Virus record (IMG/VR): IMGVR_UViG_3300021440_000080
Coordinates: 1 to 34,147 of that record
Strand: one strand, 5' to 3'
DNA length: 34,147 nt
Source: a virus
Position 1 is the stretch's first letter; every line of letters starts with the position of its first letter. Shown piece after piece: positions 5,820 to 26,095 of the stretch. Under the pieces are notes generated by a model, which made no database searches, was not told where the DNA came from, and was given only the letters and a program-made list of their open reading frames with translations. Position numbers and translations under genes: made by a program.

Positions 5820-6475
5820 TCATCGTCCTCTTGGTTCGGCATCATATCCACGACATTGGTGTCCATGTTTTCCAAAGCCAGCAATTCACGCATGGAGTCC
5901 GCCGGGCTCAGGCCCTTGGGGTGGACATCTGGGGTCTGGTTAATGACCAGCGTGTTGTTCTGCTGGTTATTCACCACGGTCGGCCGTGACAAGTCCGGGG
6001 TTGCGCCAGAAGTGCGCAACAACAAGTCGAGGACCATGCGGTACTGAGACAGGTTTGTTGGCTTCAGGTCCCCCAACACACTCTCGTTGCCAGTCTGGAT
6101 GTACTGTTTGAGCTTGGTTCCATACAGCTTGTGGAAAGCCGTCATGAAGTCCGCCAGGAAGTCTGCCCCCTCCCCCATGACTTGTTGGGTTTTGAGTCGC
6201 ACCCCCTGGAGCATGCCCTCCAGGTACAAGGACCGACGGTTGTGCCAGTCTGAGCGAACTCCAGCACGAACGATTTGCCCCAGTTTCAAAACTGGGTTCA
6301 CTTTCTGAATCTGTTCGTAGCTGTTTCCTTGCAAAAAAAGGTTGAACAGCTCGGCCTGCAGCTTGGGACTCAATTCAGGCTCATTGGCCTTCTCCGCCAT
6401 GCGGAGCGCCGACTCTTCCTTGGCTGTCAGAAGCGTCTGGACGATTTTTTCTTTCTTCAGCGGTTCGTACGCCAT
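5816..6475 (-). CDS. Putative terminase small subunit
   Basis: A 219-residue protein immediately upstream of the large terminase and overlapping it by four bases. The N-terminal third contains a helix-turn-helix-like stretch (LSPKLQAELFNLFLQGNSYE then QIQKVNPVLKLGQIVRAGVR), followed by a long helical region suited to oligomerisation and an acidic C-terminal tail ending NQEDDE. Small terminases bind packaging-start DNA and load the large subunit, and have little sequence conservation, so the call depends on position, size and domain order. The ATG at 6475 has a purine-rich AGAGAGAAG ribosome-binding site; its first 95 bases overlap the preceding gene in another frame. Confidence 0.6.
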   Translation of the reverse strand: MAYEPLKKEKIVQTLLTAKEESALRMAEKANEPELSPKLQAELFNLFLQGNSYEQIQKVNPVLKLGQIVRAGVRSDWHNRRSLYLEGMLQGVRLKTQQVMGEGADFLADFMTAFHKLYGTKLKQYIQTGNESVLGDLKPTNLSQYRMVLDLLLRTSGATPDLSRPTVVNNQQNNTLVINQTPDVHPKGLSPADSMRELLALENMDTNVVDMMPNQEDDE

Positions 6476-6830
6476 TTTCTTCTCTCTTAAAACGGAACTT
6501 CATCCGTTTGCCGTTCTCCTGTGACAGAGAAACGGAGATCTCCCACTCTGTCCCCAGCAAATTCTTGGTCTCTGTGTTCAAGATTAACGACATCCGATGC
6601 GCTTCCGCTCGGGAATACAAACGTTCCAGCCCAATATGGAAATGGAGTGCATGGCCTTCGATGTCCGCTTCCATGTAAACGTTCTCAGGGAGAGCGTCGA
6701 AGCAAATCAGAGGGTACACCTTCAGCTGTACTACCTGAGCCTCGTGAAGACACGCAAACCTTCGGGTTTGCTCCTTCAGCAACATCAGTTGGGTCCAAGG
6801 ATCGATGGGACCGGTCGTTACATCAGCCAT
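6381..6830 (-). CDS. Small protein of unknown function upstream of terminase
   Basis: A 149-residue protein read from ATG 6828-6830, which overlaps the end of the SbcD-like gene by eight bases; longer in-frame starts run deep into that gene and are less likely. Residues 1-110 form a plausible small alpha/beta domain (VVQLKVYPLICFDALPENV, then EIDIEG-like and HFHIGLERLY segments). The last 32 residues are basic and low-complexity and are encoded inside the start of the small-terminase gene in another frame, so they may be tolerated rather than selected. No family recognised. Confidence 0.6.
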   Translation of the reverse strand: MADVTTGPIDPWTQLMLLKEQTRRFACLHEAQVVQLKVYPLICFDALPENVYMEADIEGHALHFHIGLERLYSRAEAHRMSLILNTETKNLLGTEWEISVSLSQENGKRMKFRFKREENGVRTAEERKNRPDASDSQGRVGAPHGGEGQ

Positions 6831-7830
6831 AAAGCCCTCGCTTGCTTGCCATATCTGCCAAAACCTCTTTTGGAGTTCCGTTTGGCGGCGAAAAAGACTC
6901 CAGGAATGCCCTGAGAGCAACCGGAATGCCGGCCGACTCACGGACGTCCGCATGCTTGGTCTCTGGTGGATTGACAAAACCACGGACCCGAGCCTTGCCC
7001 TTCAGGGATTCCCTTGCACCGTCCACAAAAGCCTCAGAACCTCTGATGTCGAACGACCAAGAGATGCCGTCCTCTTCTGTGATCTCAGGAATCTCCATCC
7101 CTTCCTTCAGCTCCATGTGTCGAATCTCTCGGCACACACCTGAGGTCGAGAATGGCTTCGCCGACACCATTTCGCCATCCTTGAAGTCCAACAACCAAAC
7201 CGCACGCGCCACATTGGCATCCGCCAAAGACCGCCAACGAGGCGCCCCGGGATACCAGACTTTGCCCACCTTCTGGGGGGTATGGATGTGCCCAGAAATG
7301 AACTGGCAGTCCAAATCCTGGACATCCACACCATCGGGTGCATAGAAGCCGGCCTCAAACATTGAGCCGGCAAACGTCTGGTGTGCGAAAATGGTTTTTG
7401 CGCCACCCTGCACAAGCTTTTCGGCCTGAACCCTGAAATCTGCCGTATCCGAAAAGTAAGGCATCATCCCGATCTTGAGATCAGCCAACAACAGGGGTTT
7501 GTCCACGACAGTCGCAGTAGCCTCTTGAGCAATCAGGGCATGGACTGAGGCTCCGTCGTTTCCAGGCATATCGTGATTGCCGACAAGGCAATACACTTGT
7601 CCGACACTCGCCTTAAGGCGAGTGGTCCACAACGACCAAAAGGCCATGACCTCGACATGTAGGATGGCGTGGGTGTGGTACAAATCCCCCAAAAACAGGA
7701 CGCTGTCGGCTTTATTGTCGACAGCGCACTTTTCTACATACTCAAGGAGAGCGTTGCACTCCTTTAAGGAGTCACTGGTAACGTGGGGGTCGCCCACAAC
7801 CAAGAACCTGTGGGAACCGGCCTTCATCAC
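6823..7830 (-). CDS. SbcD/Mre11-like nuclease subunit (T4 gp47 type)
   Basis: A 335-residue calcineurin-like metallophosphoesterase with all family motifs in order: GDPH (D14, H16), GDLYH (48-52), GNHD (84-87), FAHQ (H150) and GHIH (180-183), which together hold two metal ions. In SbcCD/Mre11-Rad50/T4 gp46-47 complexes this subunit cuts DNA ends and the SMC-like partner drives it. The partner is encoded at 13631-15733 on the other strand. The region after about residue 200 resembles the short capping domain of the Mre11 type. Its start overlaps the GroES-like gene by four bases. Confidence 0.82.
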   Translation of the reverse strand: MMKAGSHRFLVVGDPHVTSDSLKECNALLEYVEKCAVDNKADSVLFLGDLYHTHAILHVEVMAFWSLWTTRLKASVGQVYCLVGNHDMPGNDGASVHALIAQEATATVVDKPLLLADLKIGMMPYFSDTADFRVQAEKLVQGGAKTIFAHQTFAGSMFEAGFYAPDGVDVQDLDCQFISGHIHTPQKVGKVWYPGAPRWRSLADANVARAVWLLDFKDGEMVSAKPFSTSGVCREIRHMELKEGMEIPEITEEDGISWSFDIRGSEAFVDGARESLKGKARVRGFVNPPETKHADVRESAGIPVALRAFLESFSPPNGTPKEVLADMASKRGLYG

Positions 7831-8176: not shown

Positions 8177-9235
8177 CTAAGCTGAAATGTCCACACCACG
8201 GAGGCGCAACACCTTGCGCTCCAAAACAGAAAGGTAGTTCGTCGCCTGCCGCAGCACGGCCTGCGACTCCGCGCCTTCTATGCTGATGTCCGGGCGCCAA
8301 GCATCTGGCGCCACGAACCGCTCAGCAATGGTATAGCTGTCTCCTACGTCTGTGTGCATGGGAGTCTCGGAAGAAACCAAAGAAACAGCCGAAAGAAGAT
8401 CTGCGATTTCCTCTGCGGTGGTCAACATATGCGGGGCCTCCACTCCTCGATTGACTTCTGCTGCGATTTTATGGAAGTCTACGTCCTCGATACGCCCCAC
8501 CACCTTGTGCGCCCGATAAAGCTTGCGCTTATCGGTCGGGAAAAAGTGAAACATGGTCTTGGAGTACTCCTCGATAAAATTTCCCAACATTCGCCCAATG
8601 GCGACGGCTCGAAAAACCGTCGTATAAGGTAGTACGAACTTGTCGATGGCCGACAATAGGCCCTCAGCCGCTATTTGCACAAAATCCATGTACTCCAGGT
8701 GGCTTTCTTGGGTCTTACTCCAGAAAATCCGTACTCTTGAGATGGCCAGCGGCAAATTCAGCTCGACCAGCTCTTTTCTCAGCCTTCGGACTTTTTTGTT
8801 CAGCTCCAACAGCTCAGGGCAGATCTGCTTCTCTTCCTCGGTCAGACTGCCGACAATGAAGGAGATCAGCTGGTAGTTGATGCAGAACTCCCGAAAACTA
8901 TCGGGATCTCCTACCTTGAGCGCAGATGCGATCTTCTCCGTGAAGAGGACCTGGCGCTCACGGAAGTAGGGCCGGGCGGCCAAAATGTTCCCGCGGACGA
9001 CATGGATGTATTGGCAGAACCTACCAAACACCACATGTCCGAAAGTCTGCCCATCTGGATGGGGGGTTTCGAACAACAGGTCACGAAACCTTGTCTCAAG
9101 TTCAAAGAGAGTCTCCAGCTGTCTTTTCTGACGAGCTGTCGAGTCTTCCTTCGAAAGTTCTTCATATCGAGATACGGCCGCTTCCAGCGAGTTAGCAAAT
9201 GTCCGGAAGTGTGCTTCGTCGTTAGTGGCTCTCAT
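8177..9235 (-). CDS. Sigma-70-family factor lacking region 4.2
   Basis: A 352-residue protein read from ATG 9233-9235 (ATGA overlap with the helicase gene). Region 2 is clear at about residues 160-228: NLPLAISRVRIFW, then YMDFVQIAAEGLLSAIDKF, which lines up with the core-binding helix FLDLIQEGNIGLMKAVDKF of RpoD. Region 3 follows (KIAAEVN...HMLTTAEEIADLL..., then SSETPMHTDVGDSYTIAERF, like RpoD's SMETPIGDDEDSHLGDFIED). The C terminus, ATNYLSVLERKVLRLRGVD, matches the start of region 4 (LTAREAKVLRMRFGID) and then stops, so the helix-turn-helix that reads -35 boxes is absent. It probably directs RNA polymerase to phage middle or late promoters; a separate region-4.2-like protein is encoded at 24103-24354. 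Confidence 0.8.
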   Translation of the reverse strand: MRATNDEAHFRTFANSLEAAVSRYEELSKEDSTARQKRQLETLFELETRFRDLLFETPHPDGQTFGHVVFGRFCQYIHVVRGNILAARPYFRERQVLFTEKIASALKVGDPDSFREFCINYQLISFIVGSLTEEEKQICPELLELNKKVRRLRKELVELNLPLAISRVRIFWSKTQESHLEYMDFVQIAAEGLLSAIDKFVLPYTTVFRAVAIGRMLGNFIEEYSKTMFHFFPTDKRKLYRAHKVVGRIEDVDFHKIAAEVNRGVEAPHMLTTAEEIADLLSAVSLVSSETPMHTDVGDSYTIAERFVAPDAWRPDISIEGAESQAVLRQATNYLSVLERKVLRLRGVDISA

Positions 9236-10680
9236 TTCACCAAAACCGTCCTTACAGGGCCATAGATTTCTTCGTACAGGCGAACGCGCTCTTGGGCGTG
9301 TCTGTGGCATGACTCGATATTCACAACATCGAAGTCTGTAAAATAGCAGTCGACCTTGCCTTCTGCAAGTCGAGTGCCACGTCCGACTGCTTGCTTGACC
9401 ATGATCTCTGATTTTCCGCCCATCAAAAAAATGATGTGGCCGACAACCCGGATGTCCGTCCCAGTCGAAACGCAGGATGTACCGACCAAACACTCAAGCT
9501 TGCGGTCGTTAAAACGCCCTACAAGCTCTGTTGGGTCAGACCCAGGCCCACCATGGGCGAAATCGTGTTGGCACTTCAGGTGCCGCTTGAGGTAGTCGTA
9601 TTGCTGAATTTCTTCGACCAGTACCAAGACCGGCCTTCGTTGGTTTTTGAGGGAATGGTGGATGATTTTTGCGGCTTGGATGTAAATTCGTTCGTTGTAG
9701 TATAAGTGCGCACGTGTCATTACATTTGAGTCCTTGGATTCCTTGTCGGAATCCGACTCAAGCTGAATCATGGTAAAAATTGGCTTAGACAGAAAACCTT
9801 GGTCGACACCTTCACGAACAGTCATTCGATAGACAATTGGTCCAGTAATTGCAGACAACACAAGAGCAAGGCCGTCACCACGGATTTGGGTGGCGGAAAA
9901 GAAAAAACGGACAGGAGCATTTTTGAGGAGGCCGAAACAGACTTGAGCCAGAGTTTTTGCAGGAGTTTGGTGAGATTCATCAGCGATAAAAACTTGGACA
10001 CCAGCAAAGAAATCCCATGCCGGGGTGCCTTCTTCAATTTTTGTCAGGGATTGGCTAACAGCAACAGTGATGAGTTTTCCAAGATCTTTTTTGCCATCTC
10101 CATAAAAGCCAACGTGCTTTTTTCCAAAATGGAGGGACATTTCAGTGAAGAGCTGAGAGGCGATGCTGACACTGGGGGCCATCACCACGGATCGTTGCCC
10201 CAGCTCCTTGATCAAGGTCTGGAGGATGAAGGACTTGCCAAGGCCAGTCCCGATTTCCACACCACCATGCCTCACCGCCAGCAAAGCCTCTTTTGCTTCC
10301 ACCTGGTAGTACCGCGGTTCTTTTTTAGGTGGTGAACTCCAGGGCAGGGGAGTTCTTTTCGAGAACTCCCTGACTACCCGGTCCTCAAAGGGACATCGAA
10401 ACTTTTCCACAAGCTGTTGGGCTACCCCAGAGTAGGTCCAATAGCCTTCCTTGTCCTGGAAGAGGATCGAACCATCTTTTTCTTTCTGGAGGGAGAGCAG
10501 GTGCTGTTGGTACTGGGCTTCGCCCAGCTTCTTCCTGAGGAAAGAGGAGTTCCTTGCCTTCCTCAAGGCAAAGGCTGCTTTTTCATCCGTGAAGGCAAGT
10601 TCCTTCTTCAGGGAAGGGAGTTCCTCTGGACTGAGATCCCAGATCCTAGCTACTGTAGGTGAAACGATCTCAATGCGCAT
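9232..10680 (-). CDS. Superfamily 2 DNA helicase (UvsW/RecG-style repair helicase)
   Basis: A 482-residue protein with SF2 motifs in order: a Q-like RYYQVEA, Walker A GTGLGKS (about 144-150), DESH (234-237), SAT (262-264) and the motif VI arginine finger QAVGRGTR (430-437). The 140-residue N-terminal part is not recognised. Such helicases remodel forks and recombination intermediates, as UvsW does in T4. ATG 10678-10680 is preferred; the frame also allows a TTG at 10714-10716 inside the inverted-repeat arm, and neither has a strong ribosome-binding site. It is the first gene of the leftward operon. Confidence 0.85.
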   Translation of the reverse strand: MRIEIVSPTVARIWDLSPEELPSLKKELAFTDEKAAFALRKARNSSFLRKKLGEAQYQQHLLSLQKEKDGSILFQDKEGYWTYSGVAQQLVEKFRCPFEDRVVREFSKRTPLPWSSPPKKEPRYYQVEAKEALLAVRHGGVEIGTGLGKSFILQTLIKELGQRSVVMAPSVSIASQLFTEMSLHFGKKHVGFYGDGKKDLGKLITVAVSQSLTKIEEGTPAWDFFAGVQVFIADESHQTPAKTLAQVCFGLLKNAPVRFFFSATQIRGDGLALVLSAITGPIVYRMTVREGVDQGFLSKPIFTMIQLESDSDKESKDSNVMTRAHLYYNERIYIQAAKIIHHSLKNQRRPVLVLVEEIQQYDYLKRHLKCQHDFAHGGPGSDPTELVGRFNDRKLECLVGTSCVSTGTDIRVVGHIIFLMGGKSEIMVKQAVGRGTRLAEGKVDCYFTDFDVVNIESCHRHAQERVRLYEEIYGPVRTVLVK

Positions 10681-10707: not shown

Positions 10708-10807
10708 TGCAAGCAACTTGAAAAAAGTTTTAGCCAGGCTCCGGATCTGCTTGACAAGAGATGAACTCCCCCTATAATTGGATCGATCCGTTTGAATTGA
10801 ATTTGAA
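10708..10807 (+). repeat. Left 100-bp arm of the inverted repeat
   Basis: Exact reverse complement of 11073-11172 over all 100 bases, checked segment by segment. It begins TGCAAGCAACTTG and contains the inward promoter and the palindromic GGATCGATCC (10780-10789). The repeat identity ends at 10807, where the two arms diverge by a small indel. Confidence 0.9.
10751..10778 (+). promoter_or_regulatory. Consensus sigma-70 promoter, left arm, rightward
   Basis: TTGACA (10751-10756), 16-bp spacer, TATAAT (10773-10778): both hexamers are perfect consensus. Transcription would start near 10785, cross the repeat array and the right arm, and continue into the gene at 11219 and the GroEL gene. Confidence 0.75.
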
Positions 10808-11057
10808 TTGAATTTTAAAATTCAATTTAAATTCTGAATTTATAATTAGGGATTTTTTCTGAAGAAAAAATCCCCTATAATTAAATTGAATTTTAAAATT
10901 CAATTTAAATTCTGAATTTATAATTAGGGATTTTTTCTGAAGAAAAAATCCCCTATAATTAAATTGAATTTTAAAATTCAATTTAAATTCTGAATTTATA
11001 ATTAGGGATTTTTTCTGAAGAAAAAATCCCCTATAATTAAATTGAATTTTAAAATTC
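10806..11057 (+). repeat. Three exact 78-bp direct repeats plus a partial fourth
   Basis: Units start at 10806, 10884 and 10962 and are identical; a fourth begins at 11040 and breaks after 18 bases. Each unit holds a hairpin with 11-bp arms (GGGATTTTTTC / GAAAAAATCCC) and a TGAA loop, at 10849-10874, 10927-10952 and 11005-11030. A second perfect palindrome centred on GAATTTTAAAATTC is 28 bp long in units 2 and 3 (10881-10908, 10959-10986) and 22 bp in unit 1. Each unit also contains TATAAT twice. Because 78 is a multiple of three, the array stays open in frame and gives a spurious repetitive ORF on the minus strand. Confidence 0.92.
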
Positions 11058-11072
11058 CGATCAAAATTCAAT

Positions 11073-11172
11073 TTCAAATTCAATTCAAACGGATCGATCC
11101 AATTATAGGGGGAGTTCATCTCTTGTCAAGCAGATCCGGAGCCTGGCTAAAACTTTTTTCAAGTTGCTTGCA
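11073..11172 (-). repeat. Right 100-bp arm of the inverted repeat
   Basis: Exact reverse complement of the left arm. Its outer end lies 46 bases before the start of the first rightward gene. It carries the mirror-image promoter and GGATCGATCC (11091-11100). Confidence 0.9.
11102..11129 (-). promoter_or_regulatory. Consensus sigma-70 promoter, right arm, leftward
   Basis: Mirror copy of the left-arm promoter: TTGACA on the minus strand at 11124-11129 and TATAAT at 11102-11107, 16-bp spacer. It would transcribe leftwards through the array into the helicase operon, so the two transcripts overlap by about 300 bases. Confidence 0.75.
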
Positions 11173-11218: not shown

Positions 11219-11464
11219 ATGCAAGCAGCGCCTGAAAACAAAAAGAGCCTAACTGTCGTGAGTGATGGGGACGGATACTTCGGCCTCTACGAAAACGGTG
11301 GTCTTATCGCACAAGGACCTACATCGAGACTTCTGGATGCTGTGGCGGAACACTACGGAATAGAACTTGTGGGTCTTTGTACGACAGCGGCCTACAACGA
11401 CAAGGTGCTCTTCATCACGGGCGAATTCCCTGACCGGCTTGAAGAAGTCGAAATCGAAAAATAG
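11219..11464 (+). CDS. Small protein of unknown function, first rightward gene
   Basis: An 81-residue protein starting at ATG 11219, chosen for the GGAG eight bases upstream; an in-frame ATG 14 codons earlier has no comparable site. It reads as a compact alpha/beta domain (SLTVVSDGDGYFGLYENGG, then LLDAVAEHYGIELVGLC, then VLFITGEF) with an acidic tail. No family is recognised. It is the first gene after the inverted-repeat structure and lies 25 bases before the chaperonin gene, so it is probably expressed early with it. Confidence 0.65.
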   Translation: MQAAPENKKSLTVVSDGDGYFGLYENGGLIAQGPTSRLLDAVAEHYGIELVGLCTTAAYNDKVLFITGEFPDRLEEVEIEK

Positions 11465-11489: not shown

Positions 11490-13310
11490 ATGCAATACGC
11501 AAAAGTGAAGTCAGTTGCGAAGTCGGTTCTTTCCAGAGGGAAGACGCTTCAAGACAAAATCCGCACAGCCATGAACACCACCTCGTCTGTGGTGGGATCC
11601 ACGCTAGGTCCTGGTGGAATGCCGGTTTTGATCGAACGCCAAGAAGTTGGCATGGCCCCGCTGATCACCAAGGACGGTGTGACGGTTTTTCGTTCTTTGG
11701 GTTTTGATGACCCTGTGGTCCATTCAGTGATGGAGGCGGCACGAGATGCCGCCGTCCAGACTGCCTCAGAAGCCGGAGACGGAACTACGACAGCGACTGT
11801 CTTGTCTGCCGCCATCGTTGAAAAGATGGAGGAATTGCTCAAGGCAAGCCCAAAGGTAAGTCCCCAAAAGGTTGTTCGGAACATTGAGGGCATCTTCAAA
11901 AAAGAGATCGAACCAGCCATCCGGCAACTGGCTATCAAAAAGGACTGGAGCACCGAAGAAGGTCAGTCTTTCTTGAAGAAGGTGGCCAGTCTGTCGGCAA
12001 ACGGCGATGCCGATCTGGCAGAAGCCGTTATGCAGTGTTTTCAGCTGGTGGGCGACGACGGTAACGTCACGATCACAGAAGGTAACGGTCCTTCCCATTA
12101 CGAGGTGGAGAAGATCGAGGGGTTCCCAATCCCCGTCGGCTATGAAGAGTCTTGTCTGAAGTTTTACTCCAAGTTCGTCAACGATCCAGGCCAGCAGCGG
12201 GTGTTCCTGGAGAAGCCCGTAGTGGTGGTCTATAACGGCAAAATCACGGGAACACAGGCCATCGTCCCATTGATGCAGAAAATTGGTTCATTGTGGGAAA
12301 ACGAGGGCACTACCGTTGAGGACGGCAAAAGTCTCCACCTGGAGGACTGGGGTGGCCGCCACAACGTCTTGCTGGTCGCCACCGGCTTCTCTGACAGTGT
12401 GATTGGGGACCTGGCGATCAATTTCGCCCACGAAAAAACCATCAACGTCTTCCCTTTGGTAGCCCCAGAGAGCCCGCTTCATAACGGGCAACAGAAGTTT
12501 TTGGAGGATCTGGCTTGTGTGTCTGGAGCACGGGTGTTGGATCCGTTGTCGTACCCGCTGGATCGGGCACGGACGTCTGACTTGGGCTATGGAGATGGCC
12601 TCACATACTTTGAGGCCACCCGGTTCCGCTCGACCCTCGTGGGGGTTGTGGATCCAGAGGAGATCGTGCTCAGGGCAGACGAGATTCAGGCGAACATTGA
12701 CAGCGCAGAATCGATTCTGGAGAAGACGCTCCTTCAGGAGCGGCTTGGTAAGTTGACTGGCGGTATCGCCAAGCTCAAGGTCATTGGCAGCTCCAGCGGC
12801 GAACTGAAAGAGAAGCGGGACCGAGCAGAAGACGCAGTCTGCGCTGTCCGGGGCGCAATCAAAAACGGCTGTCTTCCTGGTGGGGCCTGGACTCTCCTGA
12901 AGCTGCGCGAGATCATCTACGAAGGGCTCCTCACGGAAAACAACGCCGACACGATTGCTCGCCACGTTTTGGCCAGCGCTTTTTTTGCCCCTTTTTCGAG
13001 AATCCTGGAGAATCTCGGCCACAACGAGGAGGAGATCGAAGGTGTCGAGTGGGAAATTGTGAACAACTTTGGTTCGGATCCCGAGCATGCCCTGGTTTTT
13101 GACGGTGTTTCGTGCACCTTCGTAAAGGCGGTGGAGGGCGGTATTTTGGATTCTACGCCAGCCGTGCTCGAAGCTGTCCGGAATGCCATCTCAATTGCAT
13201 CGCTCTTGGGCACGCTTGGCGGGACTGTAGTTTTTGCTCGGGATGCCGAACTGGAGCGCCAAGAAGGGCGGGACATGGCAGATTTCGTCAAAACGGCTGA
13301 AGGAGGCTGA
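11490..13310 (+). CDS. GroEL-family chaperonin, phage-encoded
   Basis: A 606-residue chaperonin, longer than the usual 540-550. The equatorial ATP site is intact: LGPGGMPVLIE, TKDGVTV (the D52 equivalent of E. coli GroEL), AGDGTTTATVL (D87) and, near the C terminus, RDRAEDAVCAVRGAI with the catalytic Asp equivalent to D398, then LPGGAWTLLKL. The apical domain between is strongly diverged and contains extra sequence, as in other phage chaperonins, and the Gly-Met tail is missing. Members fold proteins in an ATP-driven barrel; here the clients are likely phage proteins. A likely co-chaperonin is on the other strand at 7827-8168. The ribosome-binding site (AAGG) is weak and distant. Confidence 0.92.
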   Translation: MQYAKVKSVAKSVLSRGKTLQDKIRTAMNTTSSVVGSTLGPGGMPVLIERQEVGMAPLITKDGVTVFRSLGFDDPVVHSVMEAARDAAVQTASEAGDGTTTATVLSAAIVEKMEELLKASPKVSPQKVVRNIEGIFKKEIEPAIRQLAIKKDWSTEEGQSFLKKVASLSANGDADLAEAVMQCFQLVGDDGNVTITEGNGPSHYEVEKIEGFPIPVGYEESCLKFYSKFVNDPGQQRVFLEKPVVVVYNGKITGTQAIVPLMQKIGSLWENEGTTVEDGKSLHLEDWGGRHNVLLVATGFSDSVIGDLAINFAHEKTINVFPLVAPESPLHNGQQKFLEDLACVSGARVLDPLSYPLDRARTSDLGYGDGLTYFEATRFRSTLVGVVDPEEIVLRADEIQANIDSAESILEKTLLQERLGKLTGGIAKLKVIGSSSGELKEKRDRAEDAVCAVRGAIKNGCLPGGAWTLLKLREIIYEGLLTENNADTIARHVLASAFFAPFSRILENLGHNEEEIEGVEWEIVNNFGSDPEHALVFDGVSCTFVKAVEGGILDSTPAVLEAVRNAISIASLLGTLGGTVVFARDAELERQEGRDMADFVKTAEGG

Positions 13311-13595: not shown

Positions 13596-13624
13596 TTGCC
13601 GACACAGGAGGACTTTGCCATAAT
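13596..13624 (+). promoter_or_regulatory. Promoter for the SbcC-like gene
   Basis: TTGCCG (13596-13601), 17-bp spacer, CATAAT (13619-13624), directly after a terminator. Transcription would start about seven bases on, near 13631, which is the A of the SbcC ATG, so the message may be leaderless. The AGGAGG at 13607-13612 lies in the spacer and is too far from this ATG. Confidence 0.5.
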
Positions 13625-13630
13625 GGTGTT

Positions 13631-15733
13631 ATGCCGGTCCAGTTGCAAAAAATCGCAGTCTCCAATTTCGGCCCTTTCATGGGTGACCACGAATGCTCGT
13701 TCCCGCCCCATGGGCTGGTCCAGGTTCGCGGTCTGAATCGACAGACAGGCGGCAGTAGTGGGGCAGGGAAGAGCAGCTTCCTTACTGCTGTGGGGTATGC
13801 CCTGGGCCACAGCTCGGTACCGAGCGCGGCCATCCAGTGCTGGGAGACTGACAAGAAACCCCAGGTGCGCTTGGTTCTTGGGACCGATTCTGGCGCTGCC
13901 TCCATCTCCCGTGGAGTCAAGACCTTTTTTGAGGACAAGGACGGTCAGACCAAGGGCGCTGTCGCGATTGTCGAAGAACGGCTTCGTGCAGCCATTGGTA
14001 CCGACCCGGAAGTCCTCAAGCTGCTGACGTATCGTGGTCAAAAACAGCCGTCCCAGTTCCTTGGGATGAATGATGCGGCAAAAAAGGAGTTTCTCGCCCA
14101 GATCCTTGGTTTGGACAAGATCGAATCCGCCTATGAGGATTCCCTCAAGAAAGAGAAAGTCCTGGAGGGGCGGCTTGCCCAGCAACAGCTGACCGTTAAG
14201 GCGATCCAGCTGCCGTTCGTTCCGGTCTACGAGGCAGTCGATACCACTCCGATCGTGACCACGATTGAAGAGCTGAAGCAAAAACAGTCTGAGGTCGAAC
14301 GGCAAATCAAGTCGCTTTCGGCTCGAATCAAGAAGCTGAACGACGAGGTTCCGGCCGACTCAGAGGCAGTATTGGACTGCCAAAAACAGCTCGAAAAAGA
14401 GCGTGCAGCGACCTTCTCACAGGATCTTGCCCACCTGAACAAGCTTCGGACGTTCGAGAAGGAAATCGAGCGTCGCTTGAATGGCTTCCAGGCAGAAGAC
14501 GACCGACGTCTCAGGATCTTCACCAAGAGGAAGCAAGAAAAAGAGCAAGTTCTTGCTGATGCTCACCGGCTGTGGGCCACTGTGGAGGATCGCAGGGCTG
14601 AGGTGGCTACGCTCGAACGTGCTTTGGCCGAGAAGAAGTGTCCGACCTGTAAGCAGTCGCTGGAGCTTCTCAATTCAGGAGATGAGGGTCTTTGGACCGA
14701 AATCCTCAACATCACTCTCAAGCTGAAAGCCACCAGAGATCGGCTCAATGAAGCCGAAGACGCAGAGGGTCGGATCCACTGGACTGACATGCAGATCTTG
14801 GAGATGGGGAAGTTCGAGCCCAACCCAAAGATTCAGCAGTTTCAAGGGTCTTTGGCTGAAGCCCGCCGGCAAATTGGTGTCGAGCAACAACGTCTCAATG
14901 TCGAAGCTGCTACCTTTGAGTCCGAGCGCCGCAGTCGCATTGCTGCCATTGAGAAGCAAATCGCTGAACTGCGTGTCGAAAACCGTAAGGGCCACACCGC
15001 GGCACTTCGTGAACTGAATGAACAGAGCGTTGCTCTCTATGAGCAACGCCGGCTGATCACCGAAGAGTTGGCCCACAACGAAAACCGGCTTTCGACCCAT
15101 CGTTTGGCTGAGGTCAATCATCAGGCGGCAATCAAGGCGCTGGATACAGCAACAGCCCGCCTGGCAGAAGAAAAGCGACGGCTCGACGAAATCGACCTTG
15201 AATTGCGTGCAGAACGTGATTTTTCACGTTTTGTTGGCCGAGACGGCTTTCTGGGGGTGATCTTTGACGAGGTCTTGAAGGAGATCGAAGAACAGGCCAA
15301 CAAGAACTTGGGACGGATCCCGAATACCGCACAGGTGTCGGTGATCTTCAAGTCTGAGGTTTCCTCCCAGAAGGGAAACGTCAAGAAGGCCATCGTCACC
15401 GAGTTCACCAAGAATGGCCACAAATGCAGTCACCACGGCCTATCTGGTGGCATGCAGACGGTTGTTGACTTAGCGGTCGACCTGTCGCTCTTGGAGGTGG
15501 CGGGGCGGCGTACGGGGATTCGGCCGGGTTGGCTAGTGCTGGATGAGGCAATGCAGGGGTTGGGGCTGGTGGAGAAGGAGGCTTGCCTGGAGCTTCTGCA
15601 GCGGTTTGGGCAGGAAAAGCTGGTTCTGGTTGTGGATCACGATACGGCATTCAAGGAGTTTTTCACAAAAACGATTGACATTTCCTATGATGGCGCCGTA
15701 TCGTCCATCTCAGAAAGCGAGACAGGTGCATGA
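13631..15733 (+). CDS. SbcC/Rad50-like ATPase (T4 gp46 type)
   Basis: A 700-residue SMC-like protein. The N-terminal ATPase lobe has Walker A GSSGAGKSS (about 41-49); two long charged coiled coils follow, separated by a zinc hook CPTC (C337, C340) through which two molecules dimerise. The C-terminal lobe has the ABC signature GLSGGMQTVVDLA (about 604) and Walker B WLVLDEAMQGL (about 637). With the SbcD-like subunit at 6823-7830 it should form the end-processing complex that creates recombinogenic 3' ends, feeding the UvsX-like recombinase. ATG 13631 is preferred because the protein family starts here (VQLQKIAVSNFGPF); it has no good ribosome-binding site. Confidence 0.9.
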   Translation: MPVQLQKIAVSNFGPFMGDHECSFPPHGLVQVRGLNRQTGGSSGAGKSSFLTAVGYALGHSSVPSAAIQCWETDKKPQVRLVLGTDSGAASISRGVKTFFEDKDGQTKGAVAIVEERLRAAIGTDPEVLKLLTYRGQKQPSQFLGMNDAAKKEFLAQILGLDKIESAYEDSLKKEKVLEGRLAQQQLTVKAIQLPFVPVYEAVDTTPIVTTIEELKQKQSEVERQIKSLSARIKKLNDEVPADSEAVLDCQKQLEKERAATFSQDLAHLNKLRTFEKEIERRLNGFQAEDDRRLRIFTKRKQEKEQVLADAHRLWATVEDRRAEVATLERALAEKKCPTCKQSLELLNSGDEGLWTEILNITLKLKATRDRLNEAEDAEGRIHWTDMQILEMGKFEPNPKIQQFQGSLAEARRQIGVEQQRLNVEAATFESERRSRIAAIEKQIAELRVENRKGHTAALRELNEQSVALYEQRRLITEELAHNENRLSTHRLAEVNHQAAIKALDTATARLAEEKRRLDEIDLELRAERDFSRFVGRDGFLGVIFDEVLKEIEEQANKNLGRIPNTAQVSVIFKSEVSSQKGNVKKAIVTEFTKNGHKCSHHGLSGGMQTVVDLAVDLSLLEVAGRRTGIRPGWLVLDEAMQGLGLVEKEACLELLQRFGQEKLVLVVDHDTAFKEFFTKTIDISYDGAVSSISESETGA

Positions 15734-17220: not shown

Positions 17221-17868
17221 ATGACAATTCGCCTCGCCTTAGACCTGTCTTCCAGCTCCACGGGATACGCACTTGTCGAGAAATCAGACAAAGGGGTTGC
17301 TGTCTTGGGGTACGGCACACTCAAGCTGTCGCGCACCTCAATTGACGCTTATGGAAAATATCCGTTTTGTTACCATACGGCAGCGGACGAGATGGCCGAA
17401 TCAGTCCTGGCACTGGCCCGCCAACACCAGGTCACTGAGATCGTGATCGAGGAGACGAACTTGGGAAAAAATCGGTACAGCCAGAAGATCCTGGAGTTCA
17501 TCCACTGTCTGGTGCTCGAAAAGCTGAAGCTCGCCCATGAGTGTCAGGTCCTGTACCTGTCATCGTCCGCCTGGAGAAAAGAGCTGAAATTGACGCTTAC
17601 TCCAGAACAAAAGAAGGCAAACGCTAAATTGTCGGCAGCAAAGAAGAAGAGTGCCGAATCTGGCGTAAAGCTGGACAAAACTGCTCTAGGTATAAAAGGC
17701 AAGGTTACCAACAAACATCTTGCTTTGTTCTACGTGCGGGATAGGTTTGGTCTGGAGTTTTTGGCGAAAGACGATGATATCGCCGATGCGATCTGTTTGG
17801 GGACAGCAAGTTTTGGGCCGGCAGTGGTGTTTTGCGATGGGTTTCAAAAGAAAGGGATTTGGTCGTGA
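17221..17868 (+). CDS. RuvC-like Holliday junction resolvase
   Basis: A 215-residue RNase H-fold nuclease. Acidic residues sit where RuvC needs them: D8 in ALDLSSSSTGYAL, E77/E78 in TEIVIEETNLG, and D184-D186 with D189 in KDDDIADAICLG. RuvC-type enzymes cut four-way junctions symmetrically; phage versions resolve recombination or packaging branches. A Lys-rich insert (about 127-160) is longer than in bacterial RuvC. The final four bases overlap the ribonucleotide reductase start. Confidence 0.82.
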   Translation: MTIRLALDLSSSSTGYALVEKSDKGVAVLGYGTLKLSRTSIDAYGKYPFCYHTAADEMAESVLALARQHQVTEIVIEETNLGKNRYSQKILEFIHCLVLEKLKLAHECQVLYLSSSAWRKELKLTLTPEQKKANAKLSAAKKKSAESGVKLDKTALGIKGKVTNKHLALFYVRDRFGLEFLAKDDDIADAICLGTASFGPAVVFCDGFQKKGIWS

Positions 17869-20800
17869 TTAAGTCGATTGATCAGGAAGTTTTTGTTCGT
17901 CCGTTACACAAAGGCATGGGGGAGGCGGTCGCTGCACGCACCGTGTTCCGTCCCAAGGAGACATGGAAGGATGTGGCCCGACGGGTGGCGCGTGGAAACC
18001 TGTCGTTGTGCCCTCTGGGGGATCCTGATCAAGACGAAGCGGAAATGTACCGAGGAATCGCCTCCGGTGGCATTCTGATGTCGGGTCGTCACCTCCAGCA
18101 CGGCGACTCCACCCAAAAAGGGCGTAATTTGGAGGTTTTCTCCAATTGCAGCACGGCTGCCTTGAGCTGTGTGAAATTCTACCTGCTGCTGAACGGCAGT
18201 GGCGTCGGCCGAGTCTATGACGACTCGGTGATGGTGATTGATTGGACCTGTGCCCCCAAGCTCACCCTCCGTCTTTCAGTCAACCATCCGGATTTTCCGG
18301 ATACTCCCGAAAAACAACAGAAGCTGATGCGGACGTGGGGTATTTCGCAAGAAGAAATGCTCGACTTTGTGGCTGAGCTTGGTGGCACCGACGTCCCGGA
18401 GAAAGGGGTTTCCCACGTTGTTCAGGACTCACGTGAGGGCTGGGCCGCCAGTGCAGAGCTGTACGAGTCCATGGCTTTTGCTAACACGGTACGAATGCGG
18501 ACTCCTGAAGTCTTTTCCTTGCCTGAGGAAGAGGATCTGAACCTCTGCTTGGACTTTTCGCCAGTTCGCCCAGAGGGCGCCCCAATTGCTGGTATGCAGG
18601 ATCGTCCTGCCAGTGGCCCACTTTCGGTTATCCAGGCTTTTTACTGCATCCGAAAGATTGTCAACAAGCAGTACGGTGACATTGAGCGCTGGGAACAGGC
18701 CATGCGGGTTGACCATGAGCTTTCTACTCAGGTCCAAGTGGGCGGCGCCCGCCGCGCCGCCCGTATGTCCACCAAATGGTGGAAGGACCCAGGTATCTTC
18801 AAATTCATCCGTATCAAGGCCGATTGCGGACTGTGGACCTCGAACAACTCTGTGGCAGTTGACCAAGAGTTCTGGGATGGTGTCAAGTCCGGCAAAGACG
18901 CGCATGCTGTCGCCGTCTTCAACGAAGTCACCAAATACATGTTCATCAATGGTGAACCCGGCTTCGTCAACGTCGACAAGCTGGAGGCGCACGGCGAACG
19001 TGTGGTCGCCCAAGACGGCTCAGATTTCTCGTCTGACCGCTATCAGATTTCGTACGCCAAAGAAGCGCTGTATGCAGTATATCTTGGATTACAAAACACC
19101 AAGTATCACCATACAACAAATCCTTGTATTACGGGCGACACCTTGATCGAAACCTCTGAAGGTTTCCTGCAAGCGAAGGACCTGGTGGGCAAGCAGTTTA
19201 CTGCTCGTATTCGCAATAACGAAAACGCCGGCGACTGGGTGTCGACCCAGCAGGGTTTTTGGTCAAACGGCGTCAAAGAGGTGTTTGAAATCCGACTGGA
19301 ATCCGGCAAGATTATCAAGGCAACAGGAAACCATCAATTCTACGTCCGGATTGACAGTGTAGGTCAGTCCGGGGCTGTGGAGACTGGAGGGTACTGGTTG
19401 GAGGTAAACGAGCTTGTCAGTGCCGAGATGGGGCACTCCCTCTTCGTTTCAGGAGAAGCCGATGAGCTTATGACAGTGGACGGCTGGGAGAAGATCGATC
19501 GTGTGGAGTACGTTGGGGAAGAGGAGGTGTTTGACTGCTCGATCCCAGGGCCGAATTGCTATTTCGCAAATGGCATTCTGTCACACAATTGCGGCGAAAT
19601 CACGATCCACTTGCTCGGCGCTTACTGCGTGATTGCCGACATTGCTCCATCGTTGTTGCCTGAATACTCGTTACAAGAAATCAGCAACTTTAGAAAGAAC
19701 CCCAAGAGCGCTCCAGAGGGGTTCTGGGAAGACTGGGATGCGCGATTCTTCCGGTCGTGCAGCACAGTGGCGCGCTCGCTCGTTCGCGTCAACAGCCTGC
19801 CTGCCCTCTACGGCAAAGAGGTCGCGAGGACAGAGCGTATCGGTGTCGGTTTGACCGGTGTTCACGAGTACGCTTGGCTCCGTTTTGGTCTTTGCTTTGA
19901 TGATCTGGTCGACCCAGATATCAGTAAGAGCCTGCCGTTTTGGGAGACCTTGGCGAAAGGTCGAGATGCTGTACGCCAAGCTGCTGACGAATATTGTGTA
20001 AAGTTAAATCGCAATAAACCTCACACTTATTGTACAATGAAACCCGCCGGTTGTGCCACGCCTGAGACGGAAGTGAAGACGACAGAGGGAGCAAAGACGC
20101 TTCGTGACGTTTTTGCTGCGAACGGAGTGTCCATGGAGCAGATTTTCTCCACCCCAGCGGGCACGTGGATTGACCCTACTGTCAAAATCCAGGTCATGGA
20201 TGAGAACAATGAAGCAAAAAACATCACGAAGCTGTACATCAACGGCGTCAAGGAGGTCTTTGAGATCTCTTTCGATGACACGACGTCTGTGAGACTTACC
20301 GGCAACCACAAGCTCAAGTTGGCGGACGGGCAATGGAGGCGTGTCGACGAATTGGGGGCAGATGCCGTTGTCGATGCGTTTTATGGGGTCGGTATTCGTA
20401 AGCCAATGAGGATTGCACGAATCCAAAAGATGGAACCAGAAGTCACCGTCGACATTGAGGTGGCCGATACTCACACGTACCAGTTAGGGAATGGCGTAGT
20501 TTCCCATAATACCACGTCAAAGTTGTTCGGATTAACAGAAGGCGCACACCTTCCTTCGCACAAGTTCTTGCTTCGTTGGGTTCAATTCGATCAAAGCTCG
20601 ACCCAAGTGCAAGAGCTGAAAGCTAAGGGGTACCCGACACGGGATTTGAAGGGCTTCTCGGGCAAAACCATTGTGGGGTTCCCGACATTGCCGACGATCA
20701 CGTCAATCGGGATGCCGTACGTGATCACCGCCCCAGAGGCTACGCCCGCCCAGCAGTACGAGTGGCTGCGTCGCCTAGAGAAGTACTGGATTGGAGAAGT

Positions 20801-21077
20801 TGGGGGTAACCAGGTGTCGTACACACTGAAGGTGTACACCAACCAGGTATCCCTGGAAGAGTTCCGGGACATCGTCCTGGAGAATCAACCAACTGTCCGG
20901 TGTTGCAGTGTGATGCCCTCCAGGCCGGATCACGAACTGGGGTACGAGTACCTGCCGGAAGAAGAAGTGTCGGCGGAGCGGTTCATCGAAATCGTTTCTG
21001 GTATCAAGGACGAAGAGATTGAGCAGGCGATCGACATGAACACCTTGCTGTGCGCCAGTGGAGCTTGCCCCATTTAG
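17865..21077 (+). CDS. Ribonucleotide reductase large subunit with two inteins
   Basis: A 1070-residue precursor that would splice to about 762 residues, the normal length of a reductase. It makes deoxynucleotides from ribonucleotides in the cytoplasm. Conserved pieces: FSNCSTAALSC with the first redox Cys, SGVGRVYDD, the radical-site motif NPCGEI (interrupted by intein 1), MKPAGTTSKLFG (interrupted by intein 2), and a CASGAC tail that accepts electrons. No small-subunit (NrdB) gene is in the window and the layout looks closest to B12-dependent class II, but class I cannot be excluded. GTG 17865 is preferred (GTGA overlap with RuvC, AAAGGG upstream); the ATG at 17832 is the alternative. Confidence 0.93.
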   Translation: MIKSIDQEVFVRPLHKGMGEAVAARTVFRPKETWKDVARRVARGNLSLCPLGDPDQDEAEMYRGIASGGILMSGRHLQHGDSTQKGRNLEVFSNCSTAALSCVKFYLLLNGSGVGRVYDDSVMVIDWTCAPKLTLRLSVNHPDFPDTPEKQQKLMRTWGISQEEMLDFVAELGGTDVPEKGVSHVVQDSREGWAASAELYESMAFANTVRMRTPEVFSLPEEEDLNLCLDFSPVRPEGAPIAGMQDRPASGPLSVIQAFYCIRKIVNKQYGDIERWEQAMRVDHELSTQVQVGGARRAARMSTKWWKDPGIFKFIRIKADCGLWTSNNSVAVDQEFWDGVKSGKDAHAVAVFNEVTKYMFINGEPGFVNVDKLEAHGERVVAQDGSDFSSDRYQISYAKEALYAVYLGLQNTKYHHTTNPCITGDTLIETSEGFLQAKDLVGKQFTARIRNNENAGDWVSTQQGFWSNGVKEVFEIRLESGKIIKATGNHQFYVRIDSVGQSGAVETGGYWLEVNELVSAEMGHSLFVSGEADELMTVDGWEKIDRVEYVGEEEVFDCSIPGPNCYFANGILSHNCGEITIHLLGAYCVIADIAPSLLPEYSLQEISNFRKNPKSAPEGFWEDWDARFFRSCSTVARSLVRVNSLPALYGKEVARTERIGVGLTGVHEYAWLRFGLCFDDLVDPDISKSLPFWETLAKGRDAVRQAADEYCVKLNRNKPHTYCTMKPAGCATPETEVKTTEGAKTLRDVFAANGVSMEQIFSTPAGTWIDPTVKIQVMDENNEAKNITKLYINGVKEVFEISFDDTTSVRLTGNHKLKLADGQWRRVDELGADAVVDAFYGVGIRKPMRIARIQKMEPEVTVDIEVADTHTYQLGNGVVSHNTTSKLFGLTEGAHLPSHKFLLRWVQFDQSSTQVQELKAKGYPTRDLKGFSGKTIVGFPTLPTITSIGMPYVITAPEATPAQQYEWLRRLEKYWIGEVGGNQVSYTLKVYTNQVSLEEFRDIVLENQPTVRCCSVMPSRPDHELGYEYLPEEEVSAERFIEIVSGIKDEEIEQAIDMNTLLCASGACPI
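19125..19589 (+). other. Mini-intein 1 in ribonucleotide reductase (NP/CGEI site)
   Basis: 155 residues from C421 to N575 of the precursor. It starts CITGDTLIETSEG (block A), has ATGNHQF (block B, TxxH-like with the catalytic His) and ends FANGILSHN followed by Cys +1. Removing it joins NP to CGEI, the reductase active-site motif. There is no homing endonuclease domain, so it cannot move by itself. All splicing residues (Cys1, block B His, terminal His-Asn, Cys+1) are present, so it should be active. Confidence 0.92.
20052..20510 (+). other. Mini-intein 2 in ribonucleotide reductase (KPAG/TTSK site)
   Basis: 153 residues from C730 to N882. It starts CATPETEVKTTEG, has RLTGNHKLKL (block B) and ends LGNGVVSHN followed by Thr +1. 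Excision restores KPAGTTSKL. No endonuclease domain. Residues needed for splicing are present. It shares the stretch NGVKEVFEI with intein 1, with 24 of 27 bases identical. Confidence 0.92.
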
Positions 21078-24360: not shown

Positions 24361-26058
24361 GTGCGCAACTTCCCGACCCCACACTGTCATCCGATGTCTT
24401 TCGACTCTGGCTCCACGCCAGAGTCTTTTGCAAAAAGGGAGGTGGAGTTAGGGACGGGCGCGCTCACCGTCACCGACCACGGATCAATGGCCGCATGCCG
24501 TAAGGTCTACGACCTCGCCAAAAAGAACAATTTAGCCCCCATCCTGGGGCTTGAGGCGTATTTTCGTGATGACAAGTGCCCGATTTTGACAAAAAAAGGG
24601 TACGATCCAGCTTCATACCTCAAGTACTGCCATCTGACGATTCATGCACGGGACGAGCAGGCATACTTCTTCCTTGGGGAAAAGCTTTCCAGGGCGCCCA
24701 CCGAAACTCACGGCTCAGAAGCTAAGCCCATCTTCACTTGGACCGATCTTGAAGAAATTGGCGCCCAGAATGTGACAATGACGTCGGGGTGCCTGGCGGG
24801 GATGGTCCAGCGCCATATTCTTGATCACTCAAACCTGGATGTGGCCAAGGCGTATTACGAGAAACTCCGTTCAGTGGTTCGGCCCGGAAATTTCTATGTC
24901 GAGGCGTTCCCGCACAAGTGTGACAAGAACTGGGTCGCAGGGGTTTTCTTCGATTTTGAGGATGGGACGAAACAGAAGTACTGGGCGTCCAAAAAGCTCA
25001 AGTTCCGCTTTGCTGGGGAGATTGAAGCCAAAGAGGCCGCAAAGCGGTATGGAACCCCCAAATGGACTGATGGGGACGAGCTGCTGGCGGTCCGTAACTA
25101 CCGGTCATGGACGGATTTGCCCCCCAAGAAGATCGTGGGGTGTGCACACATCGAAGATTTCATTTCGAACGAGTGCCAGCCTTGGTGTCCCGACGGAGAC
25201 GTCCAAAAAGGTGCCAACAAGGTGGTAATGGCACTGGCTCGGAAGTATGGGGACAAAATCCTCATCAGCGATGACAGCCACTACGCCACCCCCGAAGAGA
25301 AGATCGTCCAAGACATCCGCCTGCAACAGAACGGCTCGTGGCGTTTTTACGGGACCTACAACCGCCAAGACAGCAAGCAGGCGTTCGAGTACTTCAGCCA
25401 AGAGCTGGGCATCTCTCTTGAGGGGTTCGAAGGCTTGGTCGAAAACAACCTGGAGTGGGCTGACGGCTTCAAGGACTTCAAGTTCAACTCCAAGGTGTCG
25501 CTTCCCACTTCTTTCTACCCCAAGGACACCCTGGCCCACACCTACGAGCTGATCAAGAAGCATGGCCGGATGGATTGGAATGCGCCGGTCTACGTCAACC
25601 GCCTGAATGCCGAAATCGAGCTACTCCACCGAAACCAGACCATCGATCTCCTGCCCTATTTTTTCATCGGAGAAGACGTCTGCTCGTTTTATGAGCGACA
25701 AGGCATGTTGACTGGCCCCGGCCGTGGGTCGGCCGCGGGCCTTCTTTTGGCATACCTTTTGGGGATTACGCACGTGGACCCACTCAAGTTTGGACTCAGC
25801 ATGGAACGGTTCTTGACGCTGGATCGAATCAAGTCTGGCAAATTGCCCGATATCGACCAAGATTTGGGTACCCGCGAACCACTGGTTGACGGCTGGTTGG
25901 AAACCGTTTACGAGTTAGAACTGGAAGACGGCTCGACAGTCAACATGCGGGGCGACGACATGGTGGTGATTGACGGGAAACAGATGGAAGTCGCGGCGGC
26001 CCTGGCAGCTGGAATCGACTTGGTTGAGGTCGCAGAGGTGCGTTTTGAAAATCGTTAA
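24361..26058 (+). CDS. DNA polymerase III alpha, N-terminal fragment
   Basis: A 565-residue protein from GTG 24361 (AGGAG nine bases upstream). It holds the PHP domain (H8 and H10 in PHCHP, then VTDHGSM), the GPGRGSAAGLLLAYLLGI motif of the palm and the first two catalytic aspartates in PDIDQD (D497, D499 with D501). Normal family members continue with about 600 more residues. Here the polymerase sequence stops at about L513 and is followed by a 52-residue tail that looks like part of an intein (see separate entry). The rest of the enzyme is the next gene, in another frame, overlapping by 14 bases. The two products must associate, or be joined, to make a catalytic site, since the third Asp is in the other fragment. 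Confidence 0.9.
   Translation: MRNFPTPHCHPMSFDSGSTPESFAKREVELGTGALTVTDHGSMAACRKVYDLAKKNNLAPILGLEAYFRDDKCPILTKKGYDPASYLKYCHLTIHARDEQAYFFLGEKLSRAPTETHGSEAKPIFTWTDLEEIGAQNVTMTSGCLAGMVQRHILDHSNLDVAKAYYEKLRSVVRPGNFYVEAFPHKCDKNWVAGVFFDFEDGTKQKYWASKKLKFRFAGEIEAKEAAKRYGTPKWTDGDELLAVRNYRSWTDLPPKKIVGCAHIEDFISNECQPWCPDGDVQKGANKVVMALARKYGDKILISDDSHYATPEEKIVQDIRLQQNGSWRFYGTYNRQDSKQAFEYFSQELGISLEGFEGLVENNLEWADGFKDFKFNSKVSLPTSFYPKDTLAHTYELIKKHGRMDWNAPVYVNRLNAEIELLHRNQTIDLLPYFFIGEDVCSFYERQGMLTGPGRGSAAGLLLAYLLGITHVDPLKFGLSMERFLTLDRIKSGKLPDIDQDLGTREPLVDGWLETVYELELEDGSTVNMRGDDMVVIDGKQMEVAAALAAGIDLVEVAEVRFENR
25900..26055 (+). other. Intein-like N-tail on the polymerase fragment (degenerate)
   Basis: Residues 514-565: ETVYELELEDGSTVNMRGDD then MVVIDGKQMEVAAALAAGID. 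It lines up with the second half of N-terminal split inteins (for example Npu DnaE EVFEYCLEDGSLIRATKDHK then FMTVDGQMLPIDEI) and with intein 2 of this window (VFEISFDDTTSVRLTGNHKL). The block B His is replaced by Asp (GDD for GNH), and the block A start with its nucleophilic Cys is absent. So it looks like a decayed intein half that cannot splice. Confidence 0.65.
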
Positions 26059-26095
26059 AGTCAAAAAAACTGAAATCCAGCACCCCGCCTTCCTG
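26045..26095 (+). other. Intein-like C-tail at the start of the second polymerase fragment (degenerate)
   Basis: The first 12 residues, MKIVKVKKTEIQ, resemble the start of split C-inteins (Npu MIKIATRKYLGKQ) and the matching part of intein 2 here (MRIARIQKMEPE). The remainder of a C-intein, with the terminal His-Asn, is missing; polymerase sequence resumes at about residue 17 (LQQRFGENY). The break lies where natural split inteins break. Confidence 0.5.

Follow-up and report, generated by a model that had tools for sequence, protein, structure and literature searches.

A mirrored, AT-rich element between two divergent operons as candidate replication origin and control region in a relative of Myxococcus phage Mx1

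Iteron origins, such as those of the lambda O-type, RepA_N and PLE RepA systems, have an initiator gene beside repeats that lie in noncoding AT-rich DNA of a replication module. In the oriV of RSF1010, the ssi sites are two facing hairpin elements within an inverted repeat, which could prime both strands. At the T4 origins oriF and oriG, a promoter is followed by an AT-rich unwinding element, and the R-loops formed there are unwound by UvsW (PMC3016281). We found no paper in the literature that describes a phage origin with facing promoters. Myxococcus phage Mx1 (OR576727), a myophage of 169,621 bp, is cultured, and its closed genome was obtained with 327x Illumina coverage (PMC10720576). Its announcement places the start of the record at the gene that opens a co-directional series, without mention of an origin (PMC10720576). 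This start falls just within a block of helicase, gap and GroEL genes, and the corresponding gap of a relative is described here. With a probability of about 50%, we read the element in this gap as both the replication origin and the divergent control region, opened by transcription, of an Mx1-like phage of ~170 kb.

The window, i.e., the whole stretch of DNA analysed, comprises a virus record of 34,147 bases without end repeats. It represents part of the genome of an Mx1 relative, a bacterial virus of ~170 kb, with 53% identity to Mx1 in the portal and 50% in the GroEL-like chaperonin. The element occupies the gap between a leftward operon (UvsW-like helicase, sigma, terminase, portal) and a divergent rightward operon (GroEL, SbcC-like, ribonucleotide reductase, Pol III, UvsX-like). 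The first leftward gene (9232–10680, − strand) encodes an SF2 helicase of the UvsW/XPB type with ResIII and Helicase_C domains (phrog_16, E=9e-56). Its match to T4 UvsW (2oca, E=2e-12) covers the greater part of the helicase core, while XPB-type helicases score higher across a shorter stretch. A sigma-70-like factor (8177–9280, −; phrog_351, E=1.6e-8), the start codon of which is uncertain, belongs to the same operon. The rightward operon begins with an 81-aa orphan (11219–11464, +), for which no family and no relative were found and whose AF2 model (pLDDT 57) was set aside for low confidence, followed by the GroEL-like chaperonin (11490–13310, +), which served as synteny anchor.

Several other features of the neighbourhood were recorded. 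SbcD-like (6823–7830) and SbcC-like (13610–15733) genes flank the palindrome, one in each divergent operon. The ribonucleotide reductase (17832–21077) contains an intein at residues 448–586 (Pfam Intein_splicing, E=9e-19), and visual inspection pointed to another intein-like insert downstream of it. The DNA polymerase III alpha gene comes in two overlapping frames (24361–26058 and 25970–28975), apparently broken by an insertion near the PDID motif, and its second part (to 28975) has a Hint/intein segment inside.

The anatomy of the element, as described in the initial annotation, was reproduced in full. The two 100-bp arms (10708–10807, +; 11073–11172, −), claimed to be perfect, are complementary at 100 of 100 positions. 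The claim of three exact 78-bp repeats corresponds to an exact period-78 stretch of 252 bp or 3.2 units (10806–11057), and each unit carries, as stated, a hairpin with an 11-bp stem and TGAA loop, GGGATTTTTTC-TGAA-GAAAAAATCCC (10849–10874, 10927–10952 and 11005–11030), and a 28-bp perfect palindrome, TTAAATTGAATTTT/AAAATTCAATTTAA (10881–10908, also 10959–10986). Both arms contain the inward-facing consensus sigma-70 promoter TTGACA-16-TATAAT that had been reported, rightward at 10751–10778 (+) and, in identical form, leftward at 11129–11102 (−). Between the arms lies a 265-bp core (10808–11072) of 18.1% GC against 53.7% for the whole window, which is a candidate DNA unwinding element. The lowest 300-bp GC value of the window (0.183) is found at the element and the runner-up elsewhere is 0.447. 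The 465 nt folded as single-stranded DNA give −203 kcal/mol compared with −47 ± 4.7 for shuffled sequences (z = −33), which is far beyond chance. Rfam returned only microRNA-precursor models, far under their gathering scores, because of the long hairpin, and no intrinsic terminators were found in the core. A 115-aa open reading frame over the repeats (10772–11119, −) was rejected as a gene since the period of 78 is divisible by 3 and a promoter lies inside the frame.

Perfect inverted repeats and exact tandem arrays are well known to cause errors in assembly, and duplicated or misjoined arms or repeats were considered. By reasoning on an assembly graph of k ~127, at which the copy number is not fixable, the array would be a loop and 3.2 units the shortest path covering it. 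The three copies would thus be a minimum, and the true number of 78-bp units could be higher. The arms, being shorter than 101 bp, are not repeats at k ~127 and are unique for k >100; moreover, both flanks are in the conserved gene order, and a mirrored repeat of ~85 bp, although diverged, occupies the corresponding position in the cultured Mx1. Taken together, we consider an artefact very unlikely. Still harder to credit is a recent mobile or selfish palindrome of the MITE type, or a chance duplication without function. It would agree with the absence of the same sequence elsewhere, as an exact search of viral contigs with one 30-base pattern of the 78-bp unit gave no match and blastn of the element region against phage records gave nothing notable. 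Nevertheless, no target-site duplication was seen by eye at the edges (GATTT|TGCAAG and CTTGCA|GCCCA), the consensus promoters are intact in both arms, and mirrored leaders of other sequence recur at the same gap in relatives.

The inward pair are the sole perfect TTGACA-N15-19-TATAAT matches on both strands of the 34 kb. Promoters were scored against the sigma-70 consensus, the use of which in the host is assumed. The −10 box of the rightward promoter ends at 10778 and the AT-rich stretch starts ~12 bp downstream, with the same geometry on both sides. The predicted leaders fold strongly, with −153 kcal/mol (446 nt) and −149 kcal/mol (416 nt). It had been proposed, as directly seen, that these crossed promoters drive the two operons; the promoters themselves are present, whereas their driving of the operons would be a predicted role. 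This role is uncertain because a weak outward match (TTGTCA-19-TAAAAC) is likewise present in both arms and the mirrored leaders of relatives apparently read outward. Face-to-face consensus promoters were found in none of the relatives examined, and their combination with perfect arms is confined to the window. Perfect consensus promoters were observed back to back in L026, while L034 has two, both rightward. The helicase–GroEL gap of L034 also contains what resembles a tRNA gene (by eye, apparently for Asn) around locus position 4720; a perfect consensus promoter is located some hundreds of bases to its left. The gap repeats of L015, L017 and L020 (e.g., GAACGGCATTTGACA in L020) include a −35-like TTGACA, so that binding of an initiator or repressor could overlap promoters there.

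The order helicase (−), gap, GroEL (+) is common to the window, Mx1 and dozens of viral contigs, with lengths reaching 182 kb. Relatives were obtained by alignments in the viral-contig search, the helicase protein alone having returned none, and a GroEL scan of genome contigs found only host-type chaperonins with 28–31% identity. In some of the relatives (L045, L065 at about 6300–6720, and L077/G014), the phage GroEL gene carries an insertion that breaks it near residue 98; the insertion is in frame in L045 and L065, and no Pfam intein match was obtained. In a distant clade (G010, G013), helicase and GroEL are separated by only ~60–75 bp.

Within each genome, the sequence upstream of one divergent gene was compared with that upstream of the other, with gene starts assigned from open reading frames and homology, which may be off at some loci. 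Mirrored leaders, homologous to each other and thus forming an inverted repeat at the borders of the gap, were found in Mx1 (~85 bp, diverged, 4–6 bp from both genes), in L014 (23 bp identical, 5 bp from both genes), in L075 (~85 bp) and, weakly, in L025, and were absent in 15 other relatives compared. The piece shared in L014 contains a ribosome-binding-site-like GGAG and hence reads outward. The position of the mirrored leaders is shared between genomes while their sequences are unrelated, which suggests that the arms were copied onto each other within each lineage. Their recurrence also argues that the arms of the window are real and not a product of assembly. The Mx1 gap resembles that of the window in genomic position and mirrored leaders, and it is an AT trough and a skew minimum. 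It differs in that its arms are strongly diverged and lack inward consensus promoters, the 78-bp array is missing, and a wHTH gene stands at the right side.

GC skew is confounded by gene direction, and third-codon-position skew was therefore modelled by two terms, one for gene strand and one for replication arm, in a scan of both origin and terminus. Nine of the 11 close-clade genomes have their fitted origin ≤4.5 kb from the gap; G003 and G016 are the exceptions. Per genome, the same proximity is expected in 4.6–7.1% of cases (~6% overall) with shuffled gene values and in 3.4–8.6% with circular shifts. By binomial, 9 of 11 corresponds to ~1e-9 to 1e-8 when the genomes are taken as independent; as they are related, these figures overstate the case. 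The gains in single genomes are mostly weak (p 0.003–0.22). In Mx1, the origin was fitted 1.6–3 kb from the gap with the terminus 87 kb off, and the raw cumulative GC-skew minimum is at the gap. In the window, all genes run away from the gap, so that skew is confounded with gene direction; its raw cumulative minimum is at 9552. Independently of skew, the gap ranks first or second in low GC among the 300-bp windows of the whole genome in 7 of 11 close-clade genomes. G010 and G013 show a strong skew switch 45–80 kb from the helicase–GroEL junction. The location is thus a property of the close clade only, and the distant clade seems to have its origin in a different place. In G013, the lowest-GC spot (45.5 kb) lies between divergent genes and close to one of the skew peaks of this genome, but the gene next to it is not an initiator.

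The genes beside the gap were compared with PHROG profiles. The gene immediately to its right is a replication initiator or primosomal gene in L011 (phrog_1408, initiation family, E=5e-21), L019 (initiation family, E=1e-13) and L021 (primosomal family, E=2e-21). A DnaB-like helicase gene adjoins GroEL, with a profile match for L023 (phrog_19, E=3e-37). Weak matches to O-like, DnaD-like or other initiation profiles were obtained for L025, L038, L045 and L082, and the remaining relatives, including Mx1, have small winged-helix proteins beside the gap. Short-repeat clusters, specific to each phage, were observed in about half of the relatives' gaps, far above shuffled sequence. Skew, AT trough and adjacent initiator genes suggest an origin of replication in the gap for the close clade. 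Of the earlier proposal of a replication origin using transcripts as primers, the location is supported by the strand-corrected skew of relatives, the AT trough and the initiator and DnaB-like genes, while we infer the mechanism; the switch by promoter collision or double-stranded RNA offered beside it finds no specific support.

The relatives fit the iteron origins mentioned above, and the same could be asked of the window, with the 78-bp units as binding sites of an initiator, in the manner of large semi-palindromic iterons, and the promoters serving merely the operons. Palindromic direct repeats are a form known for some iterons (PMC7145576), and the short repeats of relatives stand beside wHTH or O-like initiator genes. 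However, no initiator gene was found beside the repeats of the window, the neighbours being the UvsW-like helicase and the 81-aa orphan, and no homologues of the relatives' tested winged-helix proteins were found in its 34 kb. The window is also without the short iterons of relatives, having palindromic units instead, and 78 bp is long for an iteron. An initiator-dependent origin of this kind appears quite improbable.

A possible but rather unlikely explanation is a divergent regulatory region without origin function, in which the arms would be the same control element for both operons. Crossed promoters would then tune expression via interference, antisense pairing (~310 nt overlap) or RNase III acting on the hairpin leaders. 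The arms do border the gap beside both gene starts, both predicted leaders are strongly folded, mirrored leaders recur in Mx1, L014 and L075, and the distant clade combines its short gap with a skew signal elsewhere. Nevertheless, regulation alone would not account for why the close clade has a skew switch, a genome-wide AT trough, and initiator and DnaB-like genes at this place. As regards an invertible promoter switch, no recombinase was found among the subset of genes scanned.

In the preferred reading of a combined origin and control region, two identical consensus promoters in mirrored arms would fire toward each other over the core of 18% GC, and RNA polymerase arriving from both sides would help to open it. 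The transcripts may serve as primers, or their R-loops may admit primase, as at T4 oriF and oriG; alternatively, primase may load on exposed hairpin-rich single strands. Forks would start in both directions and the same transcripts would continue into both operons. Since the transcripts would read into the operons, opening of the origin and expression of both operons would be coupled and symmetric in this proposal. The identity of the arms would be maintained by recombination between them.

The element shares with T4 oriF and oriG a promoter that immediately precedes an A+T-rich unwinding element, here on both sides, and a UvsW-type helicase encoded by the phage. In contrast, T4 has one promoter and one direction per origin and employs a MotA middle promoter, whereas the present element has two identical facing sigma-70 promoters, a palindromic tandem array and a perfect inverted repeat. 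No MotA box replaces the −35 element, and both promoters of the window have consensus TTGACA. Compared with RSF1010 oriV, the element differs in that it also has promoters. Judged from sequence, priming by transcripts is compatible with this anatomy, i.e., a promoter ~12 bp before the AT-rich core and a UvsW-like gene as the first leftward gene. The helicase beside the element makes a link to R-loops suggestive but is not proof, as it is kept in relatives without the element. A more specific version, namely a two-sided transcription-primed origin with one R-loop primer per fork, arms homogenised by recombination and symmetric expression of the operons, which would have replaced the initiator-plus-iteron system of relatives, is doubtful as a whole.

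The gap provides a candidate origin for a widespread and hardly studied group of large phages, and the cultured relative Mx1 is a system for direct test of its location. If the proposed mechanism is true, the element would represent a symmetric form of the T4-type transcription-primed origin, and concerted evolution in phage control regions would be exemplified by the mirrored leaders.
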